A stretch of DNA of 26,173 bases from a virus. This document shows positions 3,147 to 23,576 of the stretch, in pieces. The translations under genes were made by a program, and so were the position numbers. The stretch lies in the IMG/VR virus record IMGVR_UViG_3300017986_000116, positions 1 through 26,173 of that record; one strand, written 5' to 3'. How positions within the stretch are numbered: position 1 is the first letter of the stretch; each line of letters starts with the position of its first letter. The notes beneath the pieces were generated by a model. The model was not told the DNA's origin and searched no databases. It saw nothing but the letters and a program-made list of their open reading frames with translations.

Positions 3147-3147
3147 T

Positions 3148-5670: not shown

Positions 5671-7056
5671 ATGAAAAACTTTAGTGACTTTAGGTCAGAA
5701 AATTCGAAAGAAAAAACAGTAAGTGCTCCAGTAAATGAGAGCACTTTTGCTGTTTCTAAACCTCAAAGATTTAGCGAGAACGTAAGAAGTTTCGAGGAAA
5801 TTAACCTAGAATTACAAGAAATTCGCTTTCTTAAAAAGATGGGTGATAACATTGTTCGTAAGCTTAAAGCAACATGGACAGCGTTAAAAAGAGGTATCGC
5901 AATGCTCTTTAATCGTGAGGTTAAACGAGCTCCTCTATTTAAAGAAGTCGAAATCAATATTCCCGCTCAAGTCAAAGAAGATATTCTATCTCAACATGAT
6001 AATGTTCTTCTTGAAGGTGGACTCGAAGCCATTAAAGGAAACTATAACGAAGCATTAGTATGTCAATTCCTCTTCAATCATAGAGGTGAACAGGTTAATA
6101 TATCTAAAGATTACGAAAAGTATAGATTACCAATTAACCAAACAGTTCAAAAATGGGATAAAGACTTAAGAGCCTTTAATTCTAAACAGTACAATAAGAA
6201 TATCGCCATTATTAAGAAAGGTTCTCTTGATATGGCGAACTTTCTTATTTCAAATGCTGTTGCTCAAAAAGCTACTATCATAGGAGCTTACCTCGATAAT
6301 CTCGCATTCCAAGATGGAATCGATTTCAAAGCAGACATTCGTGTTGCTATCATGAAAGAAGGTAAAGAAATCCTTGATGGTTATTCTTTAAAATTATATG
6401 GAAAGAAAACTGTAGGTCTTGCAAATACAACCGCAAAAGCTTTATGCGGACACTTAGGTGGAGATAAGTATGCAGCTAAATTTGACCAAAAGGCAAAAAC
6501 AGACAGAGTACTTATTGATTTAATTCAAAAATCTTCTAACTTAGATAAAATTAAACAAGACCACAAAGATTTATTAAAAGCTAAAACTCCAGAAAAACAA
6601 CAAGCAGTACGTGATAAGATAAAAAGATTACGCGGTTTAACTGATGCTCAAATTGATAAACTTGACCAAACAAAATTAGAAGCCGCAAGAGGAGAAGCAC
6701 GTAAACCTATCAACCCTCGAGTTGCAGAACTCGTATATCAAACAATTAAAGACCTCGAAGGTACTGAACAACTCGGTGAACGTATCTTAGATATTATGGG
6801 CTTTAATGATAAAGAAACAAAGATGTTGATGGCAATTACGACTGCTAAAAAATCTGAAATTATTGCTAAACATCCAGATTTAGATTTATCTGATATTAAA
6901 ATAGACCCACCTGCAGGACGAGTTACAATTAATATTGTAGGACCTACAGGTAAAAATATTGTTACCTTTGGTGTTAAAGAAGGTGAAAAGAAAGCAGTAT
7001 CAGGTTCAGTTAGTTTTGCGGGATTAGACCCAGAAGATTTTGACGAGTATGTATAA
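5671..7056 (+). CDS. Unknown late protein with capsid-targeting-like N-terminus; possible nuclease-like core
   Basis: The 461-residue product starts MKNFSDFRSEN, resembling the short tag of T4 internal head proteins. Residues about 50-105 are basic and helical. A central region (about 205-265) reads DFKADIRVAIMKEG, then GYSLKLYGKKTVGLANTT. This D...(x)LK arrangement recalls degenerate PD-(D/E)XK-type folds, but the acidic residue expected before LK is Ser, so I treat a nuclease assignment as weak. The C-terminal third is Lys-rich helices ending in a beta-rich segment. It is the first gene behind the late promoter at 5623, and its stop overlaps the start of the kinase gene by 8 bases (ATGTATAA). 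No closer family recognised. Confidence 0.7.
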   Translation: MKNFSDFRSENSKEKTVSAPVNESTFAVSKPQRFSENVRSFEEINLELQEIRFLKKMGDNIVRKLKATWTALKRGIAMLFNREVKRAPLFKEVEINIPAQVKEDILSQHDNVLLEGGLEAIKGNYNEALVCQFLFNHRGEQVNISKDYEKYRLPINQTVQKWDKDLRAFNSKQYNKNIAIIKKGSLDMANFLISNAVAQKATIIGAYLDNLAFQDGIDFKADIRVAIMKEGKEILDGYSLKLYGKKTVGLANTTAKALCGHLGGDKYAAKFDQKAKTDRVLIDLIQKSSNLDKIKQDHKDLLKAKTPEKQQAVRDKIKRLRGLTDAQIDKLDQTKLEAARGEARKPINPRVAELVYQTIKDLEGTEQLGERILDIMGFNDKETKMLMAITTAKKSEIIAKHPDLDLSDIKIDPPAGRVTINIVGPTGKNIVTFGVKEGEKKAVSGSVSFAGLDPEDFDEYV

Positions 7057-7759
7057 AAGATTTGAAACATGGAGAGAATCAATTGAAGAGGGTCCTAACG
7101 ACCCAGCAATCTTTAAGGCAATTTTCTTAGCAGGTGGACCAGGTTCAGGTAAATCCTTTATCACTGGTAAATCTTCTATTGTATCACTCGGTTTTAAAAT
7201 GGTCAATTCAGATATTGCATTTGAACGTGCCATGCAGAAAGCTGGTATGGAAATGGACCCTAAGAGTATTTTTAGTACAATGGGTCAAGCAGTAAGAGGA
7301 AAGGCAAAAAGATTAACACAAATTCAAGTAAACTCTTATGTTAAAGGTCGATTAGGTTTAGTTATCGATGGAACAGGTAAGGACTTCGATAAAATAAAAA
7401 ATCAAGCACAAGACTTAAAGAGTATTGGATATGACGTAGCAATGATTTACGTCAACACAGATTTAGAAACTGCATTAGACAGGAATAAAAAGAGAGCACG
7501 TTCTCTACCTGATAAATCAGTAATTGATTATTGGAAACAAGTACAAAATAATATTGGTAAATTTCAAACTTTCTTTAAACAAGAATTTTTAGTCCTTGAC
7601 AATTCAGAAGGAATGGATTATAATAAGACAGGTATGGAAGGTTATAGGTTTGCCACAGCATTTAAAAACAAAGAAATTAAAAATCGTCAAGCAAAAGAAT
7701 GGATTGCGAAAGCGAAAACAAAGGGTTACAAACCTCTGAGGATTAATTTACCAGCATGA
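7049..7759 (+). CDS. P-loop kinase (zeta-toxin / polynucleotide-kinase-like)
   Basis: The 236-residue product has a strong Walker A, AIFLAGGPGSGKS (about 24-36), directly followed by FITGKS and then MVNSDIAFERA, where the Asp after NS fits the acceptor-substrate Asp of zeta/PNK-type small kinases. A later strand LGLVIDGTGKDF and an Arg-rich lid-like helix (DRNKKRARSLP) complete the fold. It probably phosphorylates a nucleic-acid end, nucleotide or sugar; the substrate cannot be read from sequence. The N-terminus MYKRFETWRES is tag-like as in neighbouring late proteins. ATG 7049 is chosen over an upstream TTG. It overlaps its neighbours by 8 and 4 bases, and a perfect sigma70 promoter lies in its 3' part. 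Confidence 0.85.
   Translation: MYKRFETWRESIEEGPNDPAIFKAIFLAGGPGSGKSFITGKSSIVSLGFKMVNSDIAFERAMQKAGMEMDPKSIFSTMGQAVRGKAKRLTQIQVNSYVKGRLGLVIDGTGKDFDKIKNQAQDLKSIGYDVAMIYVNTDLETALDRNKKRARSLPDKSVIDYWKQVQNNIGKFQTFFKQEFLVLDNSEGMDYNKTGMEGYRFATAFKNKEIKNRQAKEWIAKAKTKGYKPLRINLPA
7596..7624 (+). promoter_or_regulatory. Perfect-consensus sigma70 promoter inside the kinase gene
   Basis: TTGACA (7596-7601), a 17-base spacer and TATAAT (7619-7624) match consensus exactly, about 130 bases upstream of the ligase-like gene. It lies in coding sequence (VLDNSEGMDYNKT), so selection on the protein could explain it, but a 12-of-12 match with ideal spacing suggests an extra early promoter for 7756-9900. Confidence 0.5.
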
Positions 7760-8991
7760 TAACGTTTAAACAATACTTATCGGAAGCAGCTAAAAATCTT
7801 CACATGACACATTTGGAAGATGCGGTCATTGATGGTGGAGTAGTTGGAACACGTAACGTATTCTCTTATATTAGAGCAATACGTGATATGTTAGCTGGAC
7901 ATACTTCCGCTCCCGTCAGTTTAACTGTAAAATGGGATGGTGCGCCTGCACTCTTTGCTGGGATTGACCCAACTGATGGTAAGTTCTTTGTAGCAAAGAA
8001 AGGAGTCTTTAATAAGAATCCAAAAATTTATAAAACAAATGCAGAAATTGATAATGATATCAAAGGTGACTTGAATGCTAAATTCAAAGTTGCCCTTGCC
8101 GAGTTCTCAAAACTCGGATTACGTGAAGGAGTAATACAAGGTGATTTCTTATATACGAACGACGACCTTAAAACTGAAACTATCGATGGAGAGACGTATA
8201 TTACTTTTCATCCTAACACGATTGTTTACGCGGTACCAAAAGATAGTGACCTTGGAAAAACAATTAATGCCTCAAAAATCGGTGTGGTCTGGCATACAGT
8301 CTACAGAGGAAAAGATTTTGAATCAATGTCAGCAAGTTTTGGAAAGAAGATTGTACCTTATCTCAAAGTCCCAAAATCAGTCTGGGCAGTAGATGCAGTC
8401 TTTGAAGATAAATCAGGTAACGTAACTTTTACTGAAAAAGAAACGACTGATATAACAAAGGTTCTTTCAGATGCCGGTAAAATTTTCAGAAGAATACCAG
8501 CAAAAGTACTCAATGAATTAGGTACTAACACAGAATTAAACGCAAGAGTAAACACTTATATTAATAGTAAGGTAAGAGATGGTGAACGTATTGGTGAACC
8601 AAAATCTTTCCTTATTGGTTTACAAGCATACATTAAAGAATATTATCAGAAACAAGCTGATAAAGTTAAACAACCAACAACAAAGGCTGCTAAGATTAAA
8701 ATTGGTAATGATGTATTGAAATATTTTTCTAAAGCGAATATGAGACATATCGAAGCAATCTTTTCTCTATACAATCTTTTAGTTGATGCAAAACACATGG
8801 TTATCGATAAGCTTAATCATGTTGATGGACTTAAAACATTCCTTAAAACAAAAGATGGATTTGAAGTAACAGGTCAAGAAGGATTTGTTGCTATCGACCA
8901 CCTTGGAAGAAATAGTCTTAAACTCGTTGATAGATTGGAATTCTCAAAAGCAAACTTCTCAACAGAGTATATTAAAGGCTGGGATAAGTAA
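7756..8991 (+). CDS. Ligase-like nucleotidyltransferase-fold protein with capsid-targeting-like N-terminus
   Basis: The 411-residue product carries motifs in the order of covalent nucleotidyltransferases (RNA/DNA ligases, capping enzymes): motif I V-K59-W-D61-G62-A, where K59 would be the adenylated Lys; EGVIQGDFLYT (124-134), like motif III/IIIa; EGFVAI (375-380), like motif IV; and SLKLVDR (387-393), like motif V. A mainly helical insert (about 225-365) separates the early and late motifs, which is unusual. The N-terminus MITFKQYLSEA resembles a T4 head-targeting tag ending in an L-x-E cleavage-like site. I recall this as a conserved uncharacterised phage family (possibly DUF6267). It overlaps the kinase stop by 4 bases, suggesting a kinase-ligase pair. 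Activity is inferred. Confidence 0.72.
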   Translation: MITFKQYLSEAAKNLHMTHLEDAVIDGGVVGTRNVFSYIRAIRDMLAGHTSAPVSLTVKWDGAPALFAGIDPTDGKFFVAKKGVFNKNPKIYKTNAEIDNDIKGDLNAKFKVALAEFSKLGLREGVIQGDFLYTNDDLKTETIDGETYITFHPNTIVYAVPKDSDLGKTINASKIGVVWHTVYRGKDFESMSASFGKKIVPYLKVPKSVWAVDAVFEDKSGNVTFTEKETTDITKVLSDAGKIFRRIPAKVLNELGTNTELNARVNTYINSKVRDGERIGEPKSFLIGLQAYIKEYYQKQADKVKQPTTKAAKIKIGNDVLKYFSKANMRHIEAIFSLYNLLVDAKHMVIDKLNHVDGLKTFLKTKDGFEVTGQEGFVAIDHLGRNSLKLVDRLEFSKANFSTEYIKGWDK

Positions 8992-9900
8992 ATGGCCGCC
9001 CAACAAGGGTTTGCCTATGAACGAGAAGTTGCAAAGACACTCAAAAAATACGATTGGGTAAAACCCACGTACTCACCCGCGGGCGCGGCATCAGACAGAC
9101 CAGATTTAGACATTCTTTTTGAAGGAAAAGAATATGGATGCGAATTAAAACTTGGTTTAGCTTCAGCTGGTTCTCTTGTCATTCATCACTTAGGTATGGG
9201 TAAGTATGCATACGGTGATACTGATGGAGATGAAGAAAAAGAATTTCTAAAAGGCCTAGCAGAAAAAGTTGATATGCTTAGTGTTATAGAACGCAAGTGG
9301 AGAAGGAAAAGCACCTTTACACATCCTAGTGACCAACACTTAAACTATCCTTTATTACAAAAAGATAAGACTGAGGACTGGGCTGCTAAAATGGAAAATG
9401 CTCGAGTGCATTATGGATATGATTTACGTACAAGGTATATTTTAGATAAAGAACAATGCCCAGATATTTACTTTCAAATGCCTTCTGATACGATTTCAAA
9501 GTATTATAATTTAAAGTATACACACTATTTAAATGTTGCAACTCACGGATTTTACCTCTTAGGAATCAGTGACCCAGCTAGAATAAATAGAGATAAGTTC
9601 GGAACAGAAAAGGTTCCTCTTTGGGACGATTGTCATACATGTGTAATGCGTGTTAGAGTACAATCTAAAGGTGTTACTAAAGCGGAACAGGCAGAAAAAA
9701 GATTAGGGTATGTTAAAGCAGGTGCAGGTCAAGGTTATCAATTCACAATGGAATTGCAATTTAAAAACCTAACAGCATCACCATACAATATAGGTCCAAT
9801 ATTTGGTAAAGGACCTACAGTAGACGAATCAAAACTTAAACTACCTAATAGAGAAGAAAAAGTTTTGATTGAAGATACAAAAGAAGAGACAGAAGAATAA
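8992..9900 (+). CDS. PD-(D/E)XK-like nuclease, hypothetical
   Basis: The 302-residue product begins with an arrangement typical of PD-(D/E)XK nucleases: GFAYEREVAKTLKK with E10 in the first helix, then RPDLDILFEG (D38/D40), then YGCELKLG, giving E51-L-K53. The spacing between D and E-x-K (about 10 residues) and the intervening strand fit the fold. The rest is not assigned; it holds several aromatic and Cys residues (CPDIYFQMP; CHTC at about 212-215) and an acidic tail. It starts on the base after the ligase-like stop and ends the operon. Possible roles are host or competing DNA degradation, or trimming ends for the kinase and ligase-like proteins. Confidence 0.68.
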   Translation: MAAQQGFAYEREVAKTLKKYDWVKPTYSPAGAASDRPDLDILFEGKEYGCELKLGLASAGSLVIHHLGMGKYAYGDTDGDEEKEFLKGLAEKVDMLSVIERKWRRKSTFTHPSDQHLNYPLLQKDKTEDWAAKMENARVHYGYDLRTRYILDKEQCPDIYFQMPSDTISKYYNLKYTHYLNVATHGFYLLGISDPARINRDKFGTEKVPLWDDCHTCVMRVRVQSKGVTKAEQAEKRLGYVKAGAGQGYQFTMELQFKNLTASPYNIGPIFGKGPTVDESKLKLPNREEKVLIEDTKEETEE

Positions 9901-10015: not shown

Positions 10016-10582
10016 ATGGGAAAAATAATGGATAGAGGTCACGATGGTGGAAACATCTGGAGATGGCTTACAATCGAAAAATACGTTCGAAAGAATGGGT
10101 GGACAAGAGGAGCAGAACTCGGTGTTTGGTTAGGTGAAACATTTAAACACCTAGTTAAAACATGTCATAATCTTACTCTATATGGAGTTGATTTATATGA
10201 AGCTCAGCCAGGTTATGATGGACCTGAACAATGGACACCAGGTGAAAATGGTCATGCTTGGAATCATGAAGCGTACTATAATGACCTCGTAAGTTTCTGT
10301 AAAGGATACAAAGACAGAGCTTTTATTATTAAAGATTATACGACTGAAGCCGCAAAGCAGATTGAAGATGAAAGTTTAGATTTTGTTTTTATCGATGCTG
10401 ACCATTCTTATAATGGTGTTATGAGAGATGTTGAAGCATGGGCTCCAAAAGTTCGTAAAGGTGGTATGATTATTGGACATGATATTCATTTCCCAACAGT
10501 CAAACAAGCTGTTGAAGAATTATATGGTGAAGGTAATTATATTGTAGAAGATGATTTTTTATGGTTAGTTGAAAAAACATGA
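10016..10582 (+). CDS. Class I SAM-dependent methyltransferase
   Basis: The 188-residue product shows the Rossmann methyltransferase pattern: motif I AELGVWLGETF (33-43), acidic end of strand 2 at YGVDLY (D59), FVFIDADHSYNGVMRD (124-138, motif IV-like and typical of the Methyltransf_24 / class-I small-molecule or sugar methyltransferase group), and GGMIIGHDIHFP (149-160). In that group the target is often a sugar or other small molecule attached to a glycan. AACAGGAGAAAACA precedes ATG 10016. It is the first gene of the island behind the perfect promoter and overlaps the next gene by 4 bases. With two glycosyltransferases and a sulfotransferase downstream, O-methylation of a glycan is a reasonable inference. 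Confidence 0.85.
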   Translation: MGKIMDRGHDGGNIWRWLTIEKYVRKNGWTRGAELGVWLGETFKHLVKTCHNLTLYGVDLYEAQPGYDGPEQWTPGENGHAWNHEAYYNDLVSFCKGYKDRAFIIKDYTTEAAKQIEDESLDFVFIDADHSYNGVMRDVEAWAPKVRKGGMIIGHDIHFPTVKQAVEELYGEGNYIVEDDFLWLVEKT

Positions 10583-11118
10583 CAAAAACAAGAGTGATTA
10601 ATTTCTATGGTGGTCCATCATCTGGTAAGAGTACGGCCGCCGCAGGATTATTTTATAGAATGAAAATGTTGGGATATGAAGTAGAACTCACAGATGAGTT
10701 TGCCAAAGAATGTGTATGGGAAGGAAACATCCCTATGCTTCAAGACCAACTCTGGGTATTAGCTCACCAACATAGAAAAATTTTAAGATTAGCAGGTAAA
10801 GTTGATTATATTATTACAGACAGTCCAGTATTATTGTCTCCTCTATATAGAGAAAAATATTCTGGTCCTTTGTACTCAGATTTAATTGACCGAATTGCTT
10901 TTGAGATTTATGAAAAATATTCTAATATAAATTTTATGCTCACTAGACCAGAAACCTTTGAACAAAATGGTAGAGCACAAGACAAAGAATTAAGTATCCA
11001 AATAGATACAGAAATCATATCTCAATTTAATAGATTAGGTATTTCATACGATGTACTTGGTTCTAATGACCCAGCTGAAGAAGCACTCACACATATTATT
11101 TCACTAATCGCACATTAA
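10579..11118 (+). CDS. P-loop NTPase/kinase (AAA_28 / NadR-kinase-like)
   Basis: The 179-residue product starts with VINFYGGPSSGKST, Walker A GGPSSGKS at 11-18. It continues with YEVELTDEFAKECVWEG, a strand VDYIITDSPVLLSPLY (Walker B-like D-S-P with potential substrate-binding residues), and FMLTRPETFEQNGRAQ with Arg residues that fit a kinase lid. The size and D-S-P motif resemble nucleoside or nicotinamide-riboside kinase-like P-loop proteins (NadR C-terminal type). The substrate is not determined. It lies between the methyltransferase and SHMT with short spacing, so it belongs to the same early metabolic operon. Confidence 0.75.
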   Translation: MTKTRVINFYGGPSSGKSTAAAGLFYRMKMLGYEVELTDEFAKECVWEGNIPMLQDQLWVLAHQHRKILRLAGKVDYIITDSPVLLSPLYREKYSGPLYSDLIDRIAFEIYEKYSNINFMLTRPETFEQNGRAQDKELSIQIDTEIISQFNRLGISYDVLGSNDPAEEALTHIISLIAH

Positions 11119-11127
11119 GGAAAAACA

Positions 11128-13594: not shown

Positions 13595-13745
13595 TTATTT
13601 AAATACAGCAGTAGTTTTGAAGTGTCCTCGAGAAGGAGAGTATATTGTTGAATATAAAGGTGATTCAAAAACCTTTGATGATTTCAACAAAGCAAATACT
13701 TATATGCAAAAATTAGTAACTCCTCCTCAAGGTGACCCAAAGTGA
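13539..13745 (+). CDS. Small hypothetical protein
   Basis: The 68-residue product (57 if the ATG at 13572 is used) is soluble, with a central beta-rich stretch AVVLKCPREGEYIVEYKG and a helical DDFNKANTYMQKL. ATG 13539 has AGG 5 bases upstream but overlaps the sulfotransferase by 56 bases; ATG 13572 reduces this to 23. The stop overlaps the GTG start of the next gene. No family recognised. It fills an otherwise gene-free slot of about 150 bases, which supports it being real. Confidence 0.6.
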   Translation: MRTLKKIWNCIMDLNNDNNYLNTAVVLKCPREGEYIVEYKGDSKTFDDFNKANTYMQKLVTPPQGDPK

Positions 13746-14428
13746 AAGCATATATTTTAAGAATTAACGACCCTTTATCAATAAAGTATGCTAAAGGTTG
13801 TGCTGAATCATGTGATGCTATTGATTTAGATTGGGAATACGTTGAAGGTTATCAAAACATGTTGGGTAAAGCTGCATGGTGTTTAACTGGAATTAAAATG
13901 AAATTCTATGAACCACCAAAGTATTTACCTAACCCAGGACCTGCACAAAAAGCAAATTGTTGTAGTGCAGGACATGGTAAAATATGGAAAATGATTGCTG
14001 AGGGTGACGACGAAGTTGGTATTGTATTAGAACATGATGCAATTATGTATTATAAACCTGATATTAAAGTACCAGACAATTATTTAATTACTTTAGGATA
14101 TAAATTACCAGACTATTGGAACTATAGATTTTTAGATGCTAAGAACGAACCTAGAGAATTAATCCCTATTGATGGCCACGAAGGTGCTCATGCATATATG
14201 ATGACAAAGAGAACAGCACAAAATCTTGTATATGAAATAGAAACAAAAGGTGTTTTAGGTGCTGTTGATAATGCATATTTTATACGAGGACAACGTAGAA
14301 CAAATATTCCGTTGTGTATTATGTCACCAACACCTGCAATAGGATATTTGAGAGAATCAACTATTTGGGCAAATAGTGCACACGTTAACTATGAATTTAT
14401 CTCCAGTTTTTCAAAATATTATAAATAA
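13742..14428 (+). CDS. GT25-like glycosyltransferase
   Basis: The 228-residue product resembles LPS-type family 25 glycosyltransferases: an N-terminal strand MKAYILRINDPLS, a region ending SAGHGKIWKMIAEGDDEVGIVLEHDAIMY (the L-E-H-D motif with D99 replaces the common L-E-D-D), then GHEGAHAYMMTKRTAQNLV (the G-A-x-A-Y-x-[IML]-[ST]-x-x-x-A motif of the family) and AVDNAYF, where D176 fits the catalytic pattern. The start is GTG 13742 (GTGA overlap). It is the last gene of the island, and a perfect late promoter octamer begins within its final codons. It probably transfers a hexose to an envelope-type or virion glycan. Confidence 0.78.
   Translation: MKAYILRINDPLSIKYAKGCAESCDAIDLDWEYVEGYQNMLGKAAWCLTGIKMKFYEPPKYLPNPGPAQKANCCSAGHGKIWKMIAEGDDEVGIVLEHDAIMYYKPDIKVPDNYLITLGYKLPDYWNYRFLDAKNEPRELIPIDGHEGAHAYMMTKRTAQNLVYEIETKGVLGAVDNAYFIRGQRRTNIPLCIMSPTPAIGYLRESTIWANSAHVNYEFISSFSKYYK
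14420..14427 (+). promoter_or_regulatory. T4-type late promoter TATAAATA
   Basis: An exact late octamer overlaps the end of the GT25-like gene, 39 bases before the next start codon. It marks the return to late genes after the early island and probably drives the long 14466-21943 run. Confidence 0.72.
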
Positions 14429-14465: not shown

Positions 14466-16871
14466 ATGAGCCAAACATTTCAAGAATTCTTGGATAGTGT
14501 ATCGTCAGCTCAACTCGATGAAGCGACACCAGGAGAAGATAATCCTAAATCGCCTGAAGAGTTGAAAGCAAAACGTCGTGGTAAAAAAGGCGACGAAGAA
14601 CCAGTTGATGGAAAAGTTGATGCAGCACCAGAAACTGATGACACAGATGATATAGACCAAGAAGAACCTAAATCAGAACCTAAGGTAAATCCTGAAGACC
14701 CATTTTCCAGTGAAAGAACACAGGACCAGATGGGTGACATTGATGCAGGAATTGCCGATGCTGCCAAGAAACTTAAAGATGCAGAGAATATTAAAACAAA
14801 TCCTCAATTAAGAAAGATTGGTAAGAAAAAGTTAAATCCTAAAAAGTTCGTAAATACGAAACCTTCCGTAGACGAAGCGCCTCGCAAAGGGGTTGCTGTT
14901 ATATCATTTGGTCGTATGAACCCTGTGACAGTTGGTCATGAAAAATTGGTCAATAAGGTCGTTTCCACTGCCTTATCCAAAGGCGGAACACCACTAATCT
15001 ACTTATCTCAAACTCAGGACTCCAAAAAAAATCCACTCACATACGACCAAAAAATCTTATTCGCTAAACGCGCATTCGGAAATAAAGTGATTGTTAAATC
15101 ACGAGCACGCACCATCATAGAAGTTGCTAAAGAATTACAACGTCAATATAGTGATTTAGTGCTTGTTGTAGGTTCCGACCGTGTAGACGAATTTAGTAGA
15201 ATGCTCAACCAATATAATGGTAGAGACTATACTTTTAATAATATCGAAGTAATCTCAGCTGGGGAAAGAGACCCGGATTCAGAAGGCGTTACGGGAATGT
15301 CTGCGTCCAAGATGAGACAAGCAGCTGCAGATGAAGACTTTACTTCCTTTAAGAAAGGATTACCAACCAAACTCAAAGGTTCTGCAAAAACAGTATATGA
15401 TGCAGTAAGAGTTGGAATGGGACTCCAAGAAACAATGGAAATAGAGTTTGAAGATTTCGATGATGAATTCTTAGATGAAATCTTTATGGACGAAAACCTC
15501 ACTGAAGATTTAATAGGTGAAGCACTAACACGTCAACAAAGACTCAAGCGCAAAATGTTAATGAAGCGTATGAGAAGTAAACTCAGAATGGGAAGAAGAC
15601 GTGCTATGAAGAGGGTTGCAACAGTCGACGTTCTTAAAAGACGTGCTCGTCGTTTAGTATATAGAATGCTTAAGAAGAGATTCTCTAAAGCAGTTAATTA
15701 TGGTGATATGCCATATAGTGCAAGACAGAGAGTTGACGATAGAATTAAAAAGATTCCTAAGAATAGAATTGATATCTTAATGCGTAGGTTCTTACCTAAA
15801 GTGAAAAAGGCAGAACGTGCAAGATTAGCAAGTAAAATGAAAGCGAAATCTAGTCCGTTGAAACCTAAGAAGGTTAAGATTATGAAGGTTGATACTTCCC
15901 CAGCGAAGAAAGGACCAAAGAAACCAAAAGAGTTTAAGAAAGAATCTTTAGACTACGCAGTAATGAACTTCTTATCTGAGAGAGTTAAGAATGGTAAATT
16001 AGACCCGTTATCTCCAATGGGTAAATCAAAACTTACTGGTCGAGAAGTTTCTCAGTATTATAGAGACAACCCTGCTGCAAAAAGAGCAGCACGAGATGAG
16101 AAGACAAAATTAGCGATTGAATTGGCATTAGACCTTGGTGGTAACATGAACTATGCCATTAAAGAAATCGAAAAGATTAAAAGAGGATTATCAAAGCATC
16201 CTGAAGTTCGTAAAGCTTTACAACATGTAAATGAGAGTGCTGAACACTCATATAAAGAATATACATTAGAACAACGCATGAATGAAGGCCCAACATATCA
16301 CACTGGGTTAGCAAAGTCAACAGCTGACAAACGTAAAGCTCAATTTAAGAAACAAGCTAAGATGGACGATGATAATCCTAAAGCATATAAACCCGCACCT
16401 GGTGATGCTACAGCAGAAACAAAACCAAGTCAACACACCAAAAATTTTAAAAAGATGTTTGGTGAAACTAATTACGAAAGAGCAGGTTTGAAAAGACCTC
16501 ACATGTTATTAGCACGTAATGGTTCAGTAGTTGTTGATAAACGTTTTAAAATTAATAAAAAAGCTGAAGAAATAGCAGCAGAACGTAGTGCAAAAATTAA
16601 AGAACTTGAGCAAATAGGGGAAGAACTTGATTTCATCTTTGAAAGCAATCCTAAAAAATCTCTTAAGAAAAAGGCTGAAAAAACTGGAATCCCTTATGGA
16701 ATCCTTAAAAAAGTATTCGATAGAGGTGTTGCTGCATGGAGAACCGGTCACAGACCCGGAACTACTCCTACTCAGTGGGGATTGGCAAGAGTTAATAGTT
16801 TTGCCACCGGGGGTAAAACACAAAAAACAACAGACGCGGATTTGTGGAAACAACATAAAGGTAAGGACTAA
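14466..16871 (+). CDS. Large basic late multi-domain protein with embedded adenylyltransferase-type domain
   Basis: The 801-residue product is modular. Residues 1-20 are tag-like (MSQTFQEFLDS, then QLDEA). Residues 21-140 are acidic and low-complexity. Residues 141-300 form a nucleotidyltransferase (HxGH/NMNAT-PPAT-like) domain: VISFGRMNPVTVGHEKL (145-161; T-V-G-H replaces H-x-G-H), VLVVGSDRVDEF (232-243), and GMSASKMRQA (277-286), equivalent to the I-S-S-T-x-x-R motif. Residues 354-490 are extremely Arg/Lys-rich and may bind DNA. Residues 545-590 form a helical module repeated in the next gene, and 730-797 hold a conserved-looking domain (AAWRTGHRPGTTPTQWGLAR). Similar 'cytidylyltransferase' proteins occur in cyanophages (from memory). 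It may be a processed head polyprotein; the start has TAGGAC upstream. Confidence 0.8.
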   Translation: MSQTFQEFLDSVSSAQLDEATPGEDNPKSPEELKAKRRGKKGDEEPVDGKVDAAPETDDTDDIDQEEPKSEPKVNPEDPFSSERTQDQMGDIDAGIADAAKKLKDAENIKTNPQLRKIGKKKLNPKKFVNTKPSVDEAPRKGVAVISFGRMNPVTVGHEKLVNKVVSTALSKGGTPLIYLSQTQDSKKNPLTYDQKILFAKRAFGNKVIVKSRARTIIEVAKELQRQYSDLVLVVGSDRVDEFSRMLNQYNGRDYTFNNIEVISAGERDPDSEGVTGMSASKMRQAAADEDFTSFKKGLPTKLKGSAKTVYDAVRVGMGLQETMEIEFEDFDDEFLDEIFMDENLTEDLIGEALTRQQRLKRKMLMKRMRSKLRMGRRRAMKRVATVDVLKRRARRLVYRMLKKRFSKAVNYGDMPYSARQRVDDRIKKIPKNRIDILMRRFLPKVKKAERARLASKMKAKSSPLKPKKVKIMKVDTSPAKKGPKKPKEFKKESLDYAVMNFLSERVKNGKLDPLSPMGKSKLTGREVSQYYRDNPAAKRAARDEKTKLAIELALDLGGNMNYAIKEIEKIKRGLSKHPEVRKALQHVNESAEHSYKEYTLEQRMNEGPTYHTGLAKSTADKRKAQFKKQAKMDDDNPKAYKPAPGDATAETKPSQHTKNFKKMFGETNYERAGLKRPHMLLARNGSVVVDKRFKINKKAEEIAAERSAKIKELEQIGEELDFIFESNPKKSLKKKAEKTGIPYGILKKVFDRGVAAWRTGHRPGTTPTQWGLARVNSFATGGKTQKTTDADLWKQHKGKD

Positions 16872-19135
16872 TGAAGAAATTTAAAAATTTATTCGAAGAG
16901 CATGGAGCAGGTTTCTGGGGAACCACTTCAGCAAAAGATAAACTTGCATCAGACACACCTGGTCAAGGTAAAACTGCTGAACAACCATTAAAGAAAAAGA
17001 AAGGTTTATCAGAGATTGCAGCTGACAATACTAATATTAATCTATTAGAAATGACAGTATCATTTAAGTTTGAAACATTACAAGATGCTGCAAAGGCTGA
17101 ACGTAAAGCAATGGCAATGAATCTCGATGCAAAATCTGAAAAAGTTAAAGGTAATAAGATGTGGTTGCTCCACATTTCTGGTAAATTTACAGACATTCAA
17201 AAGTGGCTTAAAAGAACTCAACCTGAAAAGCCAGTAGAAGAAGAATTAAAACCAACAAGTCAAACTAAAACTATAAGACCTAATGAGTATAATATTGATG
17301 GTAAAAAGGTAAGAGTAGTTCCACAAGGTGGAAAATGGAAATGTACTGTTGATGGTAAAGAATTAGGTATCTACAGTTCTGAAAAATCTTGTATGCAAGC
17401 AGCCGCAAGACATATTCGATTAGGTAGTACTGCAAAACAAGACCAAAAAGATAAGATTCAACTCGCAAGAAGTTATGCAAAACCTGGTAGTAGTTTCCAT
17501 AGTAAATACCGCGGTGCTGGTATTGGTGAAGAATTAGAAGAAGGTCATGAAAAATTTCAGTTAGTGGATATGGACGCAGACACAGCAAGAGTCGCAGTTC
17601 AACTCGCTAAGAAAGCTGGGCTACAACCACACAGTAAAAAATCAAGAAGTGGCGGTTTAGATATATCCGTAGAAGGACCTAAGCAAAAGGTATCTAAATT
17701 TATTATGTCTTTACCAGAGTCTAATTTAGATGAAATCTCACAGGATAAACTAAGAAAATATGTGGCGAAGGCAACAAGTGACGCAGGTAAAGCGTCCGGC
17801 GACATGACGAAGGGCAATCCTGACGCTGCCTCAAGGTTAAATAAAAGAATTTCTGGTGTCAATACTGCGCAAGCAAAACTCGATAAGAAAAAAGAAAGAG
17901 ACGATTTCGATAGTCCTATTACATCTAAAGATATTAAAATGGCAATAGGTATTGCTAATGACCCAAGATATAAGCAGGGTAATTATAGTGCAGCTTATCA
18001 AAAAATCTCAAGATTGAAAAAAGGTTTACAAAAACATCCTCGAGTTGCAGATGCTTTAAGACGAGCGAATGAAGAACATCAGTGTGACATCGTAGATGCT
18101 CTTATGGAAGAAGATGGATACTACAGAGGTTCACTATCATCTTATGAGAGAAGATTTGCTAAAACTCCTGAAGGACGTAGAGATGCTTCTGGTGATAGAG
18201 GTAGAGCAATGGAAAAAATCGCAGAGATTAAAGAAAAAATCCAACGCGCTCAAGAACGTGCTAGAAAATTCGAGAAATTAGCTAGTGCAGCACAAGGTAA
18301 TGAAAAGTTCGGTGCTCATACAGGTAATGAATGGAGACAAAAGGCACAAGAGAAAAAGAAAGATATTCAAAAGTATCAAAGACAAATCTCTAATCTCCAA
18401 GCAGGAAGACATATCAATGATGGTATTACTGAAAACTTCGATTTCGACGTATTACCTGAAGCAATGACTGCAGACCAAAAAGCAAAACGTTATTTAATGA
18501 TTAAGAAAGCCGCTGAAAAGAGACAGAAGGCAAGTGCTAAATGGGATGCAAGAGCGAAAAGAGATGCTCAAAAACAAATGAGAGATGCTGGTTTATTTGA
18601 TGAAGACCTTGCTATCGATGAAGAAATAATGGAAGGTGCAGTTGCAGTTTCTACAGTAGAAAAACAAATACGAAGCAATGGTGGAAAAATCATAAGACCA
18701 GAAACTGACGATAAGAAAATTACATTTACATATAATGGTGGTAAGAGAACTGTTCCTGTAGATAGAGATTTTGTTATTGACAGAGAGTATATGAAGTTAC
18801 AAAAAATCTTTGAGGGACTTCGTGGTATGCACTTTGGTTATAGAGATAACAGTAACGATGGAAACCAAGGACCAAGAGTAGTCTCAAAACCAAAACAAGA
18901 ACCAGAACTTGAAAGATTGAAAAAGAAATTAGAATTTCATTATAATCAACAAGCTGTTCACGACGAGGCAGAACGTAAATACAGAAAAGCTGCTTCGGAA
19001 GGAAGGAAAAAAGGTCACTCAGGTGTTGAAGCTAATGAAAGACGTGCTGATGAGCAAGAAGAAATGGCACAGAAGCAAATGATGAAAATCCAAGATATAA
19101 GAGACCAAATAAGAGATTTAAAAGGAAAGAAATAA
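16871..19135 (+). CDS. Large basic late multi-domain protein, probable virion/prohead component
   Basis: The 754-residue protein starts MKKFKNLFEEH, tag-like. Residues about 62-116 and 226-282 look like two small alpha/beta units of similar order (strand, helix KAERKAMAM or ARVAVQLAKKAG, paired strands, helix). Residues 140-183 are a beta-rich unit (IDGKKVRVVPQGGKWKC) followed by a helix. NLDEISQDKLRKYVAKA (285-301) begins a helical module I have seen in other phage proteins. Residues 349-400 match a module in the preceding protein, and 430-510 are charged and coiled-coil-like. Possible maturation sites of the L/I/V-x-E type sit between units (LLEM, NLDEI, LPEAM, IMEGA). It starts in the stop codon of the preceding gene (TAATG). 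Enzymatic function not recognised. Confidence 0.72.
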   Translation: MKKFKNLFEEHGAGFWGTTSAKDKLASDTPGQGKTAEQPLKKKKGLSEIAADNTNINLLEMTVSFKFETLQDAAKAERKAMAMNLDAKSEKVKGNKMWLLHISGKFTDIQKWLKRTQPEKPVEEELKPTSQTKTIRPNEYNIDGKKVRVVPQGGKWKCTVDGKELGIYSSEKSCMQAAARHIRLGSTAKQDQKDKIQLARSYAKPGSSFHSKYRGAGIGEELEEGHEKFQLVDMDADTARVAVQLAKKAGLQPHSKKSRSGGLDISVEGPKQKVSKFIMSLPESNLDEISQDKLRKYVAKATSDAGKASGDMTKGNPDAASRLNKRISGVNTAQAKLDKKKERDDFDSPITSKDIKMAIGIANDPRYKQGNYSAAYQKISRLKKGLQKHPRVADALRRANEEHQCDIVDALMEEDGYYRGSLSSYERRFAKTPEGRRDASGDRGRAMEKIAEIKEKIQRAQERARKFEKLASAAQGNEKFGAHTGNEWRQKAQEKKKDIQKYQRQISNLQAGRHINDGITENFDFDVLPEAMTADQKAKRYLMIKKAAEKRQKASAKWDARAKRDAQKQMRDAGLFDEDLAIDEEIMEGAVAVSTVEKQIRSNGGKIIRPETDDKKITFTYNGGKRTVPVDRDFVIDREYMKLQKIFEGLRGMHFGYRDNSNDGNQGPRVVSKPKQEPELERLKKKLEFHYNQQAVHDEAERKYRKAASEGRKKGHSGVEANERRADEQEEMAQKQMMKIQDIRDQIRDLKGKK

Positions 19136-19807
19136 GTGAAAAGCTTTCTGGAATATCAATACGAAAAGACTTGTTGGGACGGTTATAAACAAGTCGGTAT
19201 GAAAAAGAAAGGGAAGAAAATGGTTCCTAATTGTGTACCAGAAGAAACCCTTGATGAAAAACGTATAGATATTAAGAAGGCAATAAGTAAGATTAAAGGA
19301 TTAACGTCTAAACAGGCTCAGGTTCTTCAAACACTTCCATTGCCAGTATTGAACACTATGATTTCTCAATTACAGACACTGGTTATGGGTGAGGATTTAG
19401 ATGAAGCAACTTTAGCAGCATCAAATTCTGCAATCGTTGCGAGTTTACTTAAATTAATAAGTCGTAAGTTAAATGACGATTTACAAAAAGGTAAACTACA
19501 CGATGTTAATGTGGTTGCTAGTTTAATTAAGAAAAAAGTAGAAACTGATTTTAAACGTAAAGGTCATGCTCGATTAAAGAATGAAGAGAATGAGCTTGAA
19601 GAAAAGAAATCAGAAACTTGGGAAGCAGGTTATAAAAGACGAGTTGTAAAAACAACCAAACCAGAACATAAAGAGAAAGGTTATAATTGGAGAATTAAGG
19701 GCAAAGAAAAAGCTCACCTCACAATTAAGTTATATAAAGATAAACCTTCACAAGAAGAATTTAACAAACAAATGAAACGTGTTGCAGGACACGAATTCGG
19801 AGGATAG
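19136..19807 (+). CDS. Late protein with Cys-flanked CWDGYKQVG...C motif
   Basis: The 223-residue product starts at GTG 19136, immediately after the preceding stop, giving MKSFLEYQYEK, another tag-like N-terminus. Residues 13-33 (C-W-D-G-Y-K-Q-V-G-M then a K/G stretch, ending M-V-P-N-C) form a short two-Cys motif that I recall recurring in marine T4-like phage proteins. After an LDE junction comes a helical region (about 44-100: AISKIKGLTSKQAQVLQTL), then LDEATLAAS and another helical domain, then a basic C-terminus. The ATG of the next gene follows its stop closely. Role unknown; a virion or head-core role is inferred from context. Confidence 0.7.
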   Translation: MKSFLEYQYEKTCWDGYKQVGMKKKGKKMVPNCVPEETLDEKRIDIKKAISKIKGLTSKQAQVLQTLPLPVLNTMISQLQTLVMGEDLDEATLAASNSAIVASLLKLISRKLNDDLQKGKLHDVNVVASLIKKKVETDFKRKGHARLKNEENELEEKKSETWEAGYKRRVVKTTKPEHKEKGYNWRIKGKEKAHLTIKLYKDKPSQEEFNKQMKRVAGHEFGG

Positions 19808-19814
19808 AACGGAA

Positions 19815-21563
19815 ATGAAAAGTTTCAAACAACATACTGAAGGCTCATTCTATGGCCGAGACGACTTAGTCAAGAAATGGTCTACACCTAAAAAGGATAG
19901 ACACCTGTATATTAAGTTAGCTAAAGACGATGCAAGTGGACATCATCGTGCTTCAATGAAGCGTAAAGGTAATGAGAAGAAGATTGCTGACCTTAAGAGT
20001 CAAGGATATAAAGAAGTACCATTTGAATCAAAAGAAGAATTACAACAATGTATCGATGAAAGTTTAAAATCAGATATCGCTAGGATTGCCTCTGAATTTC
20101 CTGAGCGTTCAACTGTTACATACAAAGGGAAGAAAGCAACGGTACTAGGAAATGGAAAAGACTATGTTAAAATTGGTATCGGTGATGAAACTCACGAAGT
20201 AAGTCCTAATGTATTAAAAAAGAATACAAATGAATTAGAAAAAGATACAGTTGAAGTAGAAGTTGATGATATTTCTGTTGGTAAAAAGAAAAAGAAACCA
20301 GCTGGAGTTAAAGCAGATGAGCCTTTAAAAGGTTATGCTTATAACGAAAAGATTAAAGAATCCGCAGAGAGTATCGCTCGATTCGCTACTTACGATTGGT
20401 ATGGTTTACCAAAGATTAAAGGTTTACAAGAATATAACGAAGGTTCTTGTGTTAAAGAAATGCAAAAACTTCATGCATCAGGTTGTGCTAAACATGAAAT
20501 GTATGAAAAGATAAAAGAAAAATATGGTTGTAGTGAAGCTAAATTCAACGAACTATATGCACAATATTGTGGTACAAATGAAGAAACAATTAATGAAGCA
20601 GCAATGTCAAAACCACAATCCATTGAAGATTACGCAAGAGCAGTAGGTGTTAATAAGCAAGAACAACAATGGATTATTGATAACGAAGATTCATTTAAAA
20701 AGTATCATAACAATAGTGCGTTGAAGAAGTCTTGGTTATCTCTATCATACCCAGTCTATGACGGTGATTATTACTTTGCTTTTATTGGAGACAGTGAAAG
20801 AGAAAATGCAAAGCTCAATGCTGAAGCAAACCGCGAATTAAGAAAATATGCAAAGAGTAAATTAGACAACGAAGCTATTTACAACGAAATGGAAAAGATG
20901 TTCAGCATGACAAGATATTCTAATGTTGGTGCTGGTGATACAATGACTCGTGAAGAATTGTGGAGAGCAATTCAACATATTCGTAAAGATTATAGAGAAG
21001 AAGCACAAATCGAAGGTTGGGAAGAACTTGAAGAAAAAGCTTTATTAGGTAGAATGAAAACTATGGCACGTAACTTACTCGATAAAATGAGAAAACGCGC
21101 TAAGAAAGTTTCCCTACCTGAAAGCTTAGAAGAAAAGCTAACAGACAAATATGGTAACGCCAAATTAAGTGATGCCGACAAGGATAAAGTTGGTAAACTG
21201 AGACAGAAAATTAAAGACCATGAAATTTTAGCTGACAGATTAAGAGACGAAATTAGTCAGATTAAAAAGGCTGCTGGCGTTGATGAAAGTGTAGATTTAG
21301 AAGAAAATTTCAGCCTCACAGATTCTAATCTTAAGTGTGTATTCGCATCACCTGAGTTTAAAGTATGTGTTAGCGGAAATGATGTTGCTATCGTAATGGA
21401 TAGAAAAGTATCAAAGGGTGGAGCAATGACTGCATCTGGTAATTCTATTCCAAAAAATTTAGAAGGTGCTCCAATTACAGGTATGGCTGATGTTCTTCAC
21501 ATGGACAAAAAAGTATTTAAGAACGTCTTAGCATCTATGAAGAGAGCGAGCATTAAAGTCTAA
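19815..21563 (+). CDS. Large multi-domain late protein with four-cysteine helical module
   Basis: The start is taken at ATG 19815 (582 residues) because GGAGG lies upstream and the product then begins MKSFKQHTEGS, in line with neighbouring late proteins. An in-frame GTG 36 bases earlier is less likely. Units: a small basic unit (20-75), a beta-rich SH3-like unit (97-134: STVTYKGKKATVLGNGKDYVKIG), a helical module with four Cys (C212, C224, C239, C252), a central domain (264-430), a helical hairpin (435-486) and a beta-rich C-terminal unit (500-582). Units are separated by acidic E-S/E-A junctions (CIDES, TINEA, LPES, VDES) that could be protease sites. Function unknown; probable head or core polyprotein. 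Confidence 0.7.
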   Translation: MKSFKQHTEGSFYGRDDLVKKWSTPKKDRHLYIKLAKDDASGHHRASMKRKGNEKKIADLKSQGYKEVPFESKEELQQCIDESLKSDIARIASEFPERSTVTYKGKKATVLGNGKDYVKIGIGDETHEVSPNVLKKNTNELEKDTVEVEVDDISVGKKKKKPAGVKADEPLKGYAYNEKIKESAESIARFATYDWYGLPKIKGLQEYNEGSCVKEMQKLHASGCAKHEMYEKIKEKYGCSEAKFNELYAQYCGTNEETINEAAMSKPQSIEDYARAVGVNKQEQQWIIDNEDSFKKYHNNSALKKSWLSLSYPVYDGDYYFAFIGDSERENAKLNAEANRELRKYAKSKLDNEAIYNEMEKMFSMTRYSNVGAGDTMTREELWRAIQHIRKDYREEAQIEGWEELEEKALLGRMKTMARNLLDKMRKRAKKVSLPESLEEKLTDKYGNAKLSDADKDKVGKLRQKIKDHEILADRLRDEISQIKKAAGVDESVDLEENFSLTDSNLKCVFASPEFKVCVSGNDVAIVMDRKVSKGGAMTASGNSIPKNLEGAPITGMADVLHMDKKVFKNVLASMKRASIKV

Positions 21564-21943
21564 TGAAAGGATTTCATGATTTTTTAAATGAATCAAACTT
21601 TGGTTTGTATGAAGGAGTTACAGTTCCTTTAGAACAACCAATGATTGAGTTTGAGGAAGAAAAAGAACCAGAACTAAACAAACCGAAGCGAAGTTCTGGT
21701 GATAAAAAGTATGTTGTATATGTACGCAATCCTCAAACAGGTAATGTTAAGAAGATTCAATTCGGTGACGAGAAAGGTGGGTTGACCTCTAAAATTAATG
21801 ATAGAGACGCTGCAAGGTCATTCGCTGCTCGACATAATTGTGATACAAAAACAGATAAATTAAGTCCTGGTTATTGGGCATGTAGATTGCCTAAATACGC
21901 AAAATCATTAGGACTTAAAGGTGGCGGCTCATATTTTTGGTAA
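21563..21943 (+). CDS. Small late protein with conserved YVVYVRNPxTGNVKKIxFGD module
   Basis: The 126-residue product starts MKGFHDFLNES (tag-like, ending in L-N-E). After an acidic linker, residues about 48-126 form a compact module: KYVVYVRNPQTGNVKKIQFGD, GGL, an R-rich helix DRDAARSFAARHNC, then LSPGYWACRLPKYAKSLG and a C-terminal aromatic GGGSYFW. I recall this module (two Cys, G-Y-W-x-C-R) as widespread in marine phages and some large viruses under a DUF name (possibly DUF5872); its biochemical role is unknown. It starts in the stop codon of the preceding gene (TAATG). Confidence 0.75.
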   Translation: MKGFHDFLNESNFGLYEGVTVPLEQPMIEFEEEKEPELNKPKRSSGDKKYVVYVRNPQTGNVKKIQFGDEKGGLTSKINDRDAARSFAARHNCDTKTDKLSPGYWACRLPKYAKSLGLKGGGSYFW

Positions 21944-21948
21944 ACACT

Positions 21949-22323
21949 ATGAAATATTTTTTAATAGGAACATTAGCATTATTATTAAGTAGTTGTGCTA
22001 ACGTAGGTAAATATTTACCTAGCGAATTTGATAACGTTGAATATGGCAAATTAGTAGAATTAAATGTGATTTCTATTATGCCTCAATCAAGTTGGTGTAC
22101 TAAATCTACATTAAGTCAAATGAATTATAGAGCTATGTACTTGCATACTTATGCAGAACACAGATTAAATTCTAATATTGTAGATATATACGCTGGTATT
22201 CACGGATTAACATCTGAGTTAGTAGAGCGTGATGAACCAAGCGAAGCATATTGTAAGATTAAAAGAACGAACATACATGATATAACATCTACAGCATTGG
22301 AAACATTTGGAGATAGGAAATGA
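21949..22323 (+). CDS. Small lipoprotein
   Basis: From ATG 21949 the 124-residue product has a lipoprotein signal: MKYFLIGTLALLLSSC, with lipobox L-S-S-C and Cys at residue 16, so the mature protein should be lipid-anchored in the envelope. The rest contains two further Cys (in SSWCTKS and EAYCKIKR) and ends in a polar helix. The upstream TTG at 21937 is unlikely as a start because it adds residues before the signal. No clear ribosome-binding site is visible. A spanin-type role in outer-membrane disruption is possible because late phage lipoproteins are often o-spanins, but no paired i-spanin is evident and the size is large for that class. Confidence 0.65.
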   Translation: MKYFLIGTLALLLSSCANVGKYLPSEFDNVEYGKLVELNVISIMPQSSWCTKSTLSQMNYRAMYLHTYAEHRLNSNIVDIYAGIHGLTSELVERDEPSEAYCKIKRTNIHDITSTALETFGDRK

Positions 22324-22538
22324 GCTTAGAAGTATGGCAAGTTGAAATAGAACAAAAAGTTCTTGAGTACAAAAGTCTTTTAGAAGACGGAGATTTAAAT
22401 CAGTCAGAATACGAAGAATTAGTAGAAGATTTAGTTGACCTTTCTAAGATAGATGCAGATTTAGAATTAGAAGAAAACAAAATCTTAGCACAGAAAATTA
22501 TTGATGGTGTTAAGCTAATTGCTGGTTTAATTAAATAG
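22320..22538 (+). CDS. Small acidic helical protein
   Basis: The 72-residue product is highly acidic and helical throughout (LEDGDLNQSEYEELVEDLVDL) with a hydrophobic C-terminal stretch IIDGVKLIAGLIK. It overlaps the lipoprotein stop by 4 bases (ATGA), suggesting translational coupling. The last 15 residues could be an amphipathic membrane-binding helix. Small E/D-rich proteins of this pattern occur next to head genes in T4-like phages, but I cannot assign one. Confidence 0.65.
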   Translation: MSLEVWQVEIEQKVLEYKSLLEDGDLNQSEYEELVEDLVDLSKIDADLELEENKILAQKIIDGVKLIAGLIK

Positions 22539-22549
22539 AGGAACAAAGA

Positions 22550-22807
22550 ATGAATCCTTACCTTGACGTGCAAGACCGTCGGGTGTTTTTTGTTGATAAA
22601 CCAGACGAAGAGTTCGTTTGGCATAGAGATAATGAAACGCGTGAAATTGAAATTCTCGAAGGAGATGGTTGGCAATTTCAATGGGAAGGTGCATTACCTT
22701 GGTTATTAAAACCTGGTATGAAGTTTACGATTAAGGAAAACGAGTACCACAGAATAATAAAGGGAGTTAATAATTTAATAATTAAGATAACTCCAAAAGA
22801 TAAATAG
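22550..22807 (+). CDS. Small cupin-like protein
   Basis: The 85-residue product looks like a minimal cupin barrel: EEFVWHRDNETREIEILEGDGWQFQ, then a turn, LKPGMKFTIKENEYHRIIKG. The order charged strand, G-D-G-W strand, P-G-M, E-Y-H-R-I follows the two cupin motifs in shortened form, with H in WHRD and H in EYHRI as possible metal ligands. I recall similar one-domain proteins in marine T4-like phages without a known function. GAGGAACAAAG precedes ATG 22550. It lies between small structural-type genes. Confidence 0.62.
   Translation: MNPYLDVQDRRVFFVDKPDEEFVWHRDNETREIEILEGDGWQFQWEGALPWLLKPGMKFTIKENEYHRIIKGVNNLIIKITPKDK
22799..22806 (+). promoter_or_regulatory. Possible late promoter, GATAAATA
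   Basis: One mismatch from TATAAATA, across the stop of the cupin-like gene and about 30 bases before the EF-hand gene. It fits the placement of the perfect late octamers but is weak alone. Confidence 0.35.
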
Positions 22808-22835
22808 TTTAAAATATTTTATAAGGGAGACTGAA

Positions 22836-23576
22836 ATGTCATTTAAAGATAAAATTGATATGTTTATGGAAGCATCCGTCCGTAAACCATTAGTTGAAGC
22901 TAATTTAAAAGTTAGCCACTTCACTGGTAAAATCGCAGATAAGAAAGGTTTTACTATGAAAAAGATTGGGAGTTCTAATCCTGGCGCCGTAGTAATTTTA
23001 CAAGGTGATGAGAAAGCTATCGTTTCTTATGCTAAAAAATACTTAGGTGCAGACGAGGACGCTGAAACAGTTAACGATGTTAAAGACGATGTTTATCATC
23101 CTCAAGCAGGTATTATATTATATAAAAACCAAAAGGATGAAGCTAAGAAAATGGACCCAGTCGGTCAAGCAGATGCAGATATCGACAATGATGGTGATGT
23201 AGATGATTCAGATGAGTACCTACACAAGAAGCGTAAAGCAATTAAGAAAGCCATCGCAAAAGATAAAGAAGGTAAAGATGATGACGGCGAAGAAGTTAAA
23301 GAAGGTGGATGCGATTCTTTAAACGCTAATTATCTTAAATCAGCTGCAAAAGCTAAAGTGAAAAAAAAAGTTGATGAACACATCAAAGGTGGATTAGAAA
23401 AAGGCAAAGACGGCTATTCTTCTCATGATTATCACAGAATTGCAATTGCATTAGCTGGTGGTCAAGCTCGATACGACAGAATGTCTTATGGCGAGGGTGA
23501 AAGATATAGAGATAAAGCTAAAGAGATTTCTGATTCAGAAAAAGATAGAATCTTGAGTCAACCGACACCAAGATAA
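22836..23576 (+). CDS. Late protein with EF-hand-like calcium-binding loop
   Basis: The 246-residue product starts MSFKDKIDMFMEAS, tag-like. Residues about 24-72 form a small alpha/beta unit (NLKVSHFTGKIADKKGF...AVVILQGDEKAIVSYAKKYLG). Residues 113-128 contain a near-canonical EF-hand loop DIDNDGDVDDSDEY (ligands D115, D117, D119, D121, D126) followed by a basic helix HKKRKAIKKAIAK. The C-terminal domain (about 158-246) is helical with KGGLEKGKDGYSSHDYHRIAIALAGG. Calcium may stabilise the protein in seawater-type conditions. AAGGGAGACTGAA precedes the ATG. It is probably a virion-associated protein. Confidence 0.75.
   Translation: MSFKDKIDMFMEASVRKPLVEANLKVSHFTGKIADKKGFTMKKIGSSNPGAVVILQGDEKAIVSYAKKYLGADEDAETVNDVKDDVYHPQAGIILYKNQKDEAKKMDPVGQADADIDNDGDVDDSDEYLHKKRKAIKKAIAKDKEGKDDDGEEVKEGGCDSLNANYLKSAAKAKVKKKVDEHIKGGLEKGKDGYSSHDYHRIAIALAGGQARYDRMSYGEGERYRDKAKEISDSEKDRILSQPTPR

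Follow-up and report, generated by a model that had tools for sequence, protein, structure and literature searches.

The presence of one N-terminal pattern on nine proteins encoded by a single viral DNA fragment raises the question of whether the phage loads these proteins into its head. The window, that is the whole stretch analysed, is a 26,173-base linear IMG/VR record. Genes at 1882-5620 encode an ssDNA-binding protein, UvsX and a gp41-type helicase, and the closest relatives in protein searches, used because DNA-level relatives are almost absent, are Methylophilales phage Melnitz, Stenotrophomonas phage DLP6, Pelagibacter phage HTVC008M and many cyanophages; together these place the window among the T4-like phages. 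Tagged genes are found in two separate runs (5671-8991 and 14466-23576), between which lie host-like metabolic and glycan genes. All nine open reading frames named in the original prediction, here called by their start positions, were confirmed; 19136 starts with GTG, and the starts of 19815 and 7049 are internal ATGs within longer open reading frames. The tags are very probably T4-type capsid-targeting sequences (CTS), cut by gp21, that load enzymes and modular polyproteins into the head, and their presence on about eight proteins of this marine phage suggests that an enzyme kit is shipped into the cell with the phage DNA. Tagged proteins would be made late in infection, and their first 10-19 residues would bind the prohead scaffold via aromatic residues 4 and 7. 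The gp21 prohead protease would then cut behind an L/I-x-E site, leaving the freed proteins in the head beside the DNA, from where they would probably be ejected into the next host. Among the predicted cargo are a kinase resembling polynucleotide kinases, the ligase-like DUF6267 enzyme, an enzyme with a cytidylyltransferase/NMNAT-like domain, a probable PD-(D/E)XK-type protein and modular polyproteins. For this phage itself, we infer packaging, cleavage, ejection and enzyme function.

According to a review of T4, residues 4 and 7 are the main determinants of targeting in the IPIII CTS, and residues 8 and 10 govern its processing (PMC9026906). The N-termini of T4 IPII and IPIII read MKTYQEFIAE/A and that of IPI MKTFKEFTSTTTPVSTITE/A, a slash marking the cut throughout. 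The window tags (Table 1) resemble those of all three proteins in length, in the aromatic residues 4 and 7 and in the L/I-x-E cut site, and, as with the T4 internal proteins, unrelated mature proteins stand behind one common tag. The claim that all nine resemble the T4 CTS stood for seven: six fit well and 7049 fits through its homologs, while 19815 and 22836 are weak. Five tags (5671, 7756, 16871, 19136 and 21563) are canonical or nearly so, with aromatic residues at 4 and 7 or their equivalent and with Glu 10, although 5671 and 19136 have no hydrophobic residue 8. The exact T4 register (aromatic 4 and 7) is kept by four window N-termini, and others differ by one change or a one-residue shift. 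The 14466 tag aligns with T4 IPI rather than with the short form, sharing its 19-residue version and a cut position equivalent to ITE19/A20. The description of 7049 as a looser match was accurate, its tag being one residue out of register, and 12 of 14 standalone homologs (7049 included) fit the pattern. Several tags were also correctly said to end in L-x-E (7756, LSE/A; 21563, LNE/S; 14466, LDE19/A), and 16871 ends in a further gp21-type (L/I-x-E) site, FEE/H. The variant tag of 22836 is kept as MSFKEKIDMVMEA in the closest near-complete relative (G007, 137 kb). A lipoprotein at 21937/21949 (MKYFLIGTLALLLSSC) was rejected as a tagged protein, since the likeness is superficial and the sequence reads as a signal peptide.

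Table 1. Tags, promoter elements and domains in the window (window coordinates; a slash marks a putative cut)
Feature	Position	Strand	Remarks
T4-late-type promoter element TATAAATA	5623..5630	+	exact match; 40 nt upstream of first tagged operon
Tag MKNFSDFRSE	5671..5700	+	heads 461-aa protein (5671-7056); aromatic 4 and 7 and Glu 10
Diverged tag MYKRFETWRESIEE	7049..7090	+	heads zeta-toxin/AAA_33-type kinase (7049-7759); putative cut before GPNDP (MYKRFETWRESIEE/G)
Tag MITFKQYLSE	7756..7785	+	heads DUF6267 protein (7756-8991); putative cut before Ala11
T4-late-type promoter element TATAAATA	14420..14427	+	exact match; 38 nt upstream of second tagged operon
IPI-type tag MSQTFQEFLDSVSSAQLDE	14466..14522	+	putative cut after Glu19, before Ala20 (MSQTFQEFLDSVSSAQLDE/A)
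Cytidylyltransferase/NMNAT-like domain	14883..15500	+	residues 140-345 of 801-aa protein 14466-16871; phrog_3041 E=1e-95
DUF5824 domain	16662..16841	+	C-terminus of 14466 protein; Pfam E=1.9e-16; IFE/S site before, residue 726
Tag MKKFKNLFEE	16871..16900	+	heads 754-aa modular protein (16871-19135)
Tag MKSFLEYQYE, GTG start	19136..19165	+	heads 223-aa modular protein
Weak tag MKSFKQHTEG	19815..19844	+	heads 582-aa modular protein; only F4 fits, with H7 and a non-hydrophobic residue 8
Tag MKGFHDFLNE	21563..21592	+	heads 126-aa module
Possible late promoter GATAAATA	22799..22806	+	upstream of 22836; one mismatch to TATAAATA; not significant alone
Weak variant tag MSFKDKIDMFME	22836..22871	+	heads 246-aa protein; two LxE/A-type sites (Glu12, Glu21)

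Test patterns were derived from the T4 spacing, with internal methionines and shuffles (residues 2-21 of the same proteins permuted) as controls. Of 35 N-termini in the window, 5 fit the fixed-register pattern M[x].[FY]..[h]..E, where shuffles predict 0.06, and none of 158 internal methionines does. Among 80 related viral contigs, which as relatives are not independent samples, aromatic residues 4 and 7 were present in 141/1331 N-termini (10.6%, with 12.2 expected) and at 30/7136 internal methionines (0.42%), which clearly shows the enrichment over random N-termini that the original prediction named as its test. Positions that had not been selected for gave the same picture: [LIVMF]8 together with E10 occurred in 92 of 141 unique aromatic-4/7 N-termini versus 78 of 2366 others, and a family-weighted comparison agreed (mean 0.50 vs 0.039). 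Within 46 DUF6267 homologs (53-85% identity to the window protein), Glu 10 is invariant, Leu or Ile occupies position 8 in 46/46, F4 is kept in 43/46 and residue 7 is aromatic in 42. Mean entropy in this set is 0.62 bits at positions 4, 7, 8 and 10 against 2.30 at positions 2, 3, 5, 6 and 9, which is selection within one family. An aromatic-4/7 member was found in 43 families outside T4, clustered after dropping the first 15 residues, so descent of one common gene is not the reason for the shared tag; a broader test placed the tag in 56 families. A mere preference at translation starts in AT-rich genomes, where AAA and TTT codons follow ATG, could be suspected, because Lys at residue 2 is frequent among N-termini generally (13% of background). 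This explanation is largely refuted and has very little probability left, since shuffling gives 12 matches against 141, Glu10 and hydrophobic 8 go beyond initiation effects, the matches are concentrated in one cluster and the DUF6267 entropy is low at particular positions.

Genome-wide counts of the tag are small because tags concentrate in the cargo cluster. In G007, 7 of 149 genes match, of which four lie in the homologous cluster and one encodes a tagged 376-aa protein between portal and gp21; no more than 5-6 matches were counted in each of two other relatives (G001 and G002), and DLP6 and Melnitz show little genome-wide enrichment of the aromatic 4/7 pattern. A count of 42/68 tagged upstream neighbours, obtained with a loose pattern, was discarded because that pattern also caught false positives, among them the sulfotransferase-like MKYLILASGRDG. 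Some homologs have no tag. Many cytidylyltransferases begin at the domain, the S-PM2 copy is untagged, and many 5671 homologs start MxLLPxxxE instead. An untagged S-SZBM1 homolog begins directly at its domain (MAKNTHLEHLED), and such untagged cyanophage homologs indicate that the tag is a detachable prefix. In the DUF6267 model, the tag is mostly at pLDDT <50 and outside the confidently modelled domain.

The element TATAAATA is the T4 late-promoter core. Only three exact copies occur in the whole window, near the chance number, and it is therefore their position that is informative and not their number. In the relatives, it lies <=90 nt upstream of 23/32 tagged operon heads versus 49/305 untagged ones (p=1e-10, a value inflated by kinship). 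The gp21 protease was found in four relatives (G001, G002, G006 and G007) and is annotated in DLP6 and Melnitz; gp21, gp22 and gp23 were not found in the 26-kb window fragment. Moreover, major capsid proteins have the cut motif at the place where T4 gp23 is cut (FLSE/A in Melnitz, LLSE/A in G007). As the tag in this phage group was mapped from sequence alone, it might be argued that it sends proteins elsewhere, to the membrane or the replication site, and that its likeness to the CTS is convergent. Such a destination is scarcely credible, however, given that the T4 determinants are matched residue by residue, that the cut motif is the same as that of the major capsid protein, and that late promoters and recovery from virions of relatives both point to the head.

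The packaging reading is supported by the published virion proteomes of relatives, which agree with it. By mass spectrometry, a cytidylyltransferase homolog of 14466 was detected in virions of S-SM1 (PMC3037559), S-CREM2 (PMC10665884), S-SCSM1 (PMC9602691) and S-SZBM1 (PMC9146016). All four carry the tag, their N-termini being MKKFSAFLNE/A, MKNFSSFLTE/A, MKSFLQFLKE/A and MRFRQFIIE/A, respectively. The virion study of S-PM2 did not detect the untagged homolog of that phage (PMC3037559), which is only a weak negative control because it comes from a different, earlier experiment. In S-CREM2, 4 of 219 genes carry the fixed-register tag. Their products are gp136, the cytidylyltransferase, a SAM lyase and an APH-type kinase, each of which belongs to the 52 proteins detected in the virion (Fisher p=0.0029). 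Virion proteins gp12, gp13 and gp15 have looser versions of the tag, recognised post hoc. Thus virion proteomics, the check attached to the original prediction, has in relatives recovered tagged 14466 homologs from four phages and, in S-CREM2, four of four tagged proteins. Scanning with the S-CREM2 enzyme gave one relative only. The replicates were mixed: one of two in-register tagged genes was detected in S-SCSM1 virions and none of two in those of S-SZBM1, from which the out-of-register gp140 was detected. Pooled over the three phages, 5 of 8 T4-register proteins were in the virion versus 1.55 expected (p=0.008); the S-SZBM1 result weakened this statistic, yet was retained in the pool. Tagged proteins not reported in the published proteomes are S-SCSM1 gp30 and S-SZBM1 191 and 192, and the undetected ones are all short (105-165 aa).

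Recovery from virions also bears on the possibility that the tagged proteins belong to the scaffold core, as T4 gp67, gp68 and gp22 do, and are degraded and lost through gp21 so that nothing functional is delivered. The tagged 376-aa G007 protein sits where T4 genes 67 and 68 do, between portal and gp21, and several tagged proteins contain internal LxE-type sites; both observations favour such a role. Against this, mature virions yielded several peptides of the cytidylyltransferases as well as of the SAM lyase and kinase of S-CREM2; in addition, candidate catalytic motifs show conservation, and in the 14466 protein the LxE-type sites are mostly inter-domain. A scaffold-core role is accordingly unlikely, but it is the most plausible of the alternatives considered here.

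Comparable systems share some features with the window proteins and differ in others. The T4 internal proteins are small and without recognised catalytic domains, whereas the cargo here includes kinase, ligase-like, nucleotidyltransferase and polyprotein members of up to 801 aa. Like the predicted cargo, T4 Alt ADP-ribosyltransferase is an enzyme packaged into the head, and gp21 cuts its N-terminal propeptide, but that propeptide has six residues ending ITE-6, the C-terminus is cut too, and the enzyme types differ. P1 DdrB, N4 virion RNA polymerase and SPN3US gp47 are likewise packaged multi-domain or enzymatic proteins, sometimes proteolysed, but no common tag or family was found with them, and SPN3US propeptides are mostly far longer than the 10-20 residues of the window tags. 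A further parallel is with the T4-like cyanophages S-CREM2, S-SCSM1, S-SZBM1 and S-SM1, which share a homologous virion cytidylyltransferase and the same tag on the detected proteins. The cyanophage reports of virion NMNAT/cytidylyltransferase, SAM hydrolase and kinase mention no targeting tag in their available text, and carry-over from CsCl purification is left there as a possible source of virion enzymes (PMC10665884, PMC9602691). Such enzymes recur in cyanophage virion proteomes, whose authors were unable to distinguish packaging and carry-over, a question on which a tag that predicts virion enzymes bears directly. In the openly accessible literature searched, no paper was found that connects marine T4-like phages with a CTS. 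While T4 already provides the mechanism, what is new, as far as this literature shows, is how widely the tag is used, its enzymatic cargo, its modular polyproteins and its connection with the puzzling virion enzymes. The tag allows head cargo to be read from the genomes of uncultured marine phages, and turns hypothetical proteins (DUF6267, DUF5824 and unnamed modules) into testable candidates for a role in the first minutes of infection, which is when host defences act.

That the tagged proteins include putative enzymes was confirmed by the finding of a zeta-toxin-type kinase and a cytidylyltransferase/NMNAT-like domain. The 7049 protein matches Pfam Zeta_toxin (E=2.8e-10) and has polynucleotide-kinase similarity. 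In DUF6267, K59-x-D61-G62 (KWDG), E375-G376 and K389 are invariant. Its structural model weakly but consistently resembles ATP-dependent DNA ligases, which are the top PDB matches in a fold search (best E=0.018, TM about 0.2); comparison with PDB sequences gave no ligase match. In the 5671 protein, E127, D222 and S239-x-K241 are invariant in 23 sequences, a set like that of PD-(D/E)XK enzymes, of which the protein is a candidate member; its model has a pLDDT of 66 and gave no useful match in a fold search. It may reasonably be guessed that such a cargo would serve as a kit for nucleic-acid repair or counter-defence.

Several of these domains occur both alone and within larger proteins; the standalone form carries a tag, whereas the embedded form has none of its own. 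The 7049 kinase is also embedded in four polyproteins of 1084-1523 aa, and in the kinase copies listed a hydrophobic-x-E/G site is kept directly before the conserved G[IVLP][NY]DP domain start. The 21563 module corresponds to residues 527-650 of Melnitz gp18, the C-terminus of that larger protein (51.6% identity), and several of its standalone homologs are tagged. Modules of 19136 stand alone elsewhere with their own tags, such as MLNFKKFITE on a 76-aa protein, and the 16871 protein has module matches too. In the 14466 protein, LxE/A- or LxE/S-type sites at 19, 137, 352, 590 and 726 lie mostly between recognised domains, the cytidylyltransferase domain being flanked by LxE/A-type sites after residues 137 and 352. 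Internal LxE-type sites in the tagged proteins show a modest excess (18 vs 9.5 by chance, the tags themselves counted), and gp21-type sites are found near 24 of 36 embedded modules versus 15.8 expected from random windows. The counts do no more than suggest that proteins may be cut internally at these predicted sites.

A wider proposal, held tentatively and somewhat less probable than its converse, is that marine T4-like phages possess a general cargo system of tag and protease. In it, large polyproteins and enzymes of unrelated kinds would enter the head, be cut there into domains and be delivered as a toolkit, and the gene upstream of DUF6267 would be a fast-changing slot for several tagged families that have no relation to one another and bear an E...D...SxK signature. 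The toolkit in this proposal consists of kinase, ligase-like, NMNAT-like and nuclease-like members. In the relatives, the gene directly upstream of DUF6267 belongs to several families, many of them tagged and several with a D...SxK pattern, and profile comparison of the pairs tried detected no similarity among them. Other tagged proteins include an HD-domain protein and HAD-type phosphatases.

The interval between the portal and the prohead protease gp21 holds core genes 67 and 68 in T4; in G007 (137 kb; the contig of locus L145), the closest near-complete relative, a tagged 376-aa protein lies there, with the N-terminus MKNFKDILSE (74284-75414, within L201). A module of the weakly tagged 582-aa window protein 19815 is also found in MKQFKDILSE proteins of loci L185-L193. 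At the window's end, an incomplete protein (25812-26173) resembles, by eye, a gp67-like prohead core protein; no family match was found for this truncated protein, and G007 carries two adjacent genes similar to it.

The slot directly upstream of the DUF6267 gene varies across L011-L090 and is occupied by several families, mutually unrelated in the pairs compared, which are frequently tagged and several of which carry a D...SxK signature. Within the tagged cluster of the window, the protein at 8992-9900 has no tag and contains a stretch, PDLDILFEGKEYGCELK, that appears PD-(D/E)XK-like on inspection.

Block of host-like genes separating the window's first run of tagged genes from its second, judged by eye
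Feature	Position	Likeness
Host-like block	10016-14428	methyltransferase, nucleotide kinase, glycosyltransferase, sulfotransferase
Protein within block	11128	serine hydroxymethyltransferase

In L086, an HD_4-domain protein (20033-20665) bears the tag MQNFKSFISE. Its relatives possibly include (p)ppGpp hydrolases, and it is a possible candidate for a packaged stringent-response enzyme.

Among T4-like cyanophages, a small tagged family, MKTFKQFMSESVNISGDFNGNLY, comprises S-SCSM1 44215-44535 and S-SZBM1 gp191; its genes are flanked by terminase subunits, and neither member is reported in virions. The virion protein S-SCSM1 gp93 (L093 11626-11835) has a C-terminal end, KRTFKEFLEYIE, that is CTS-like.
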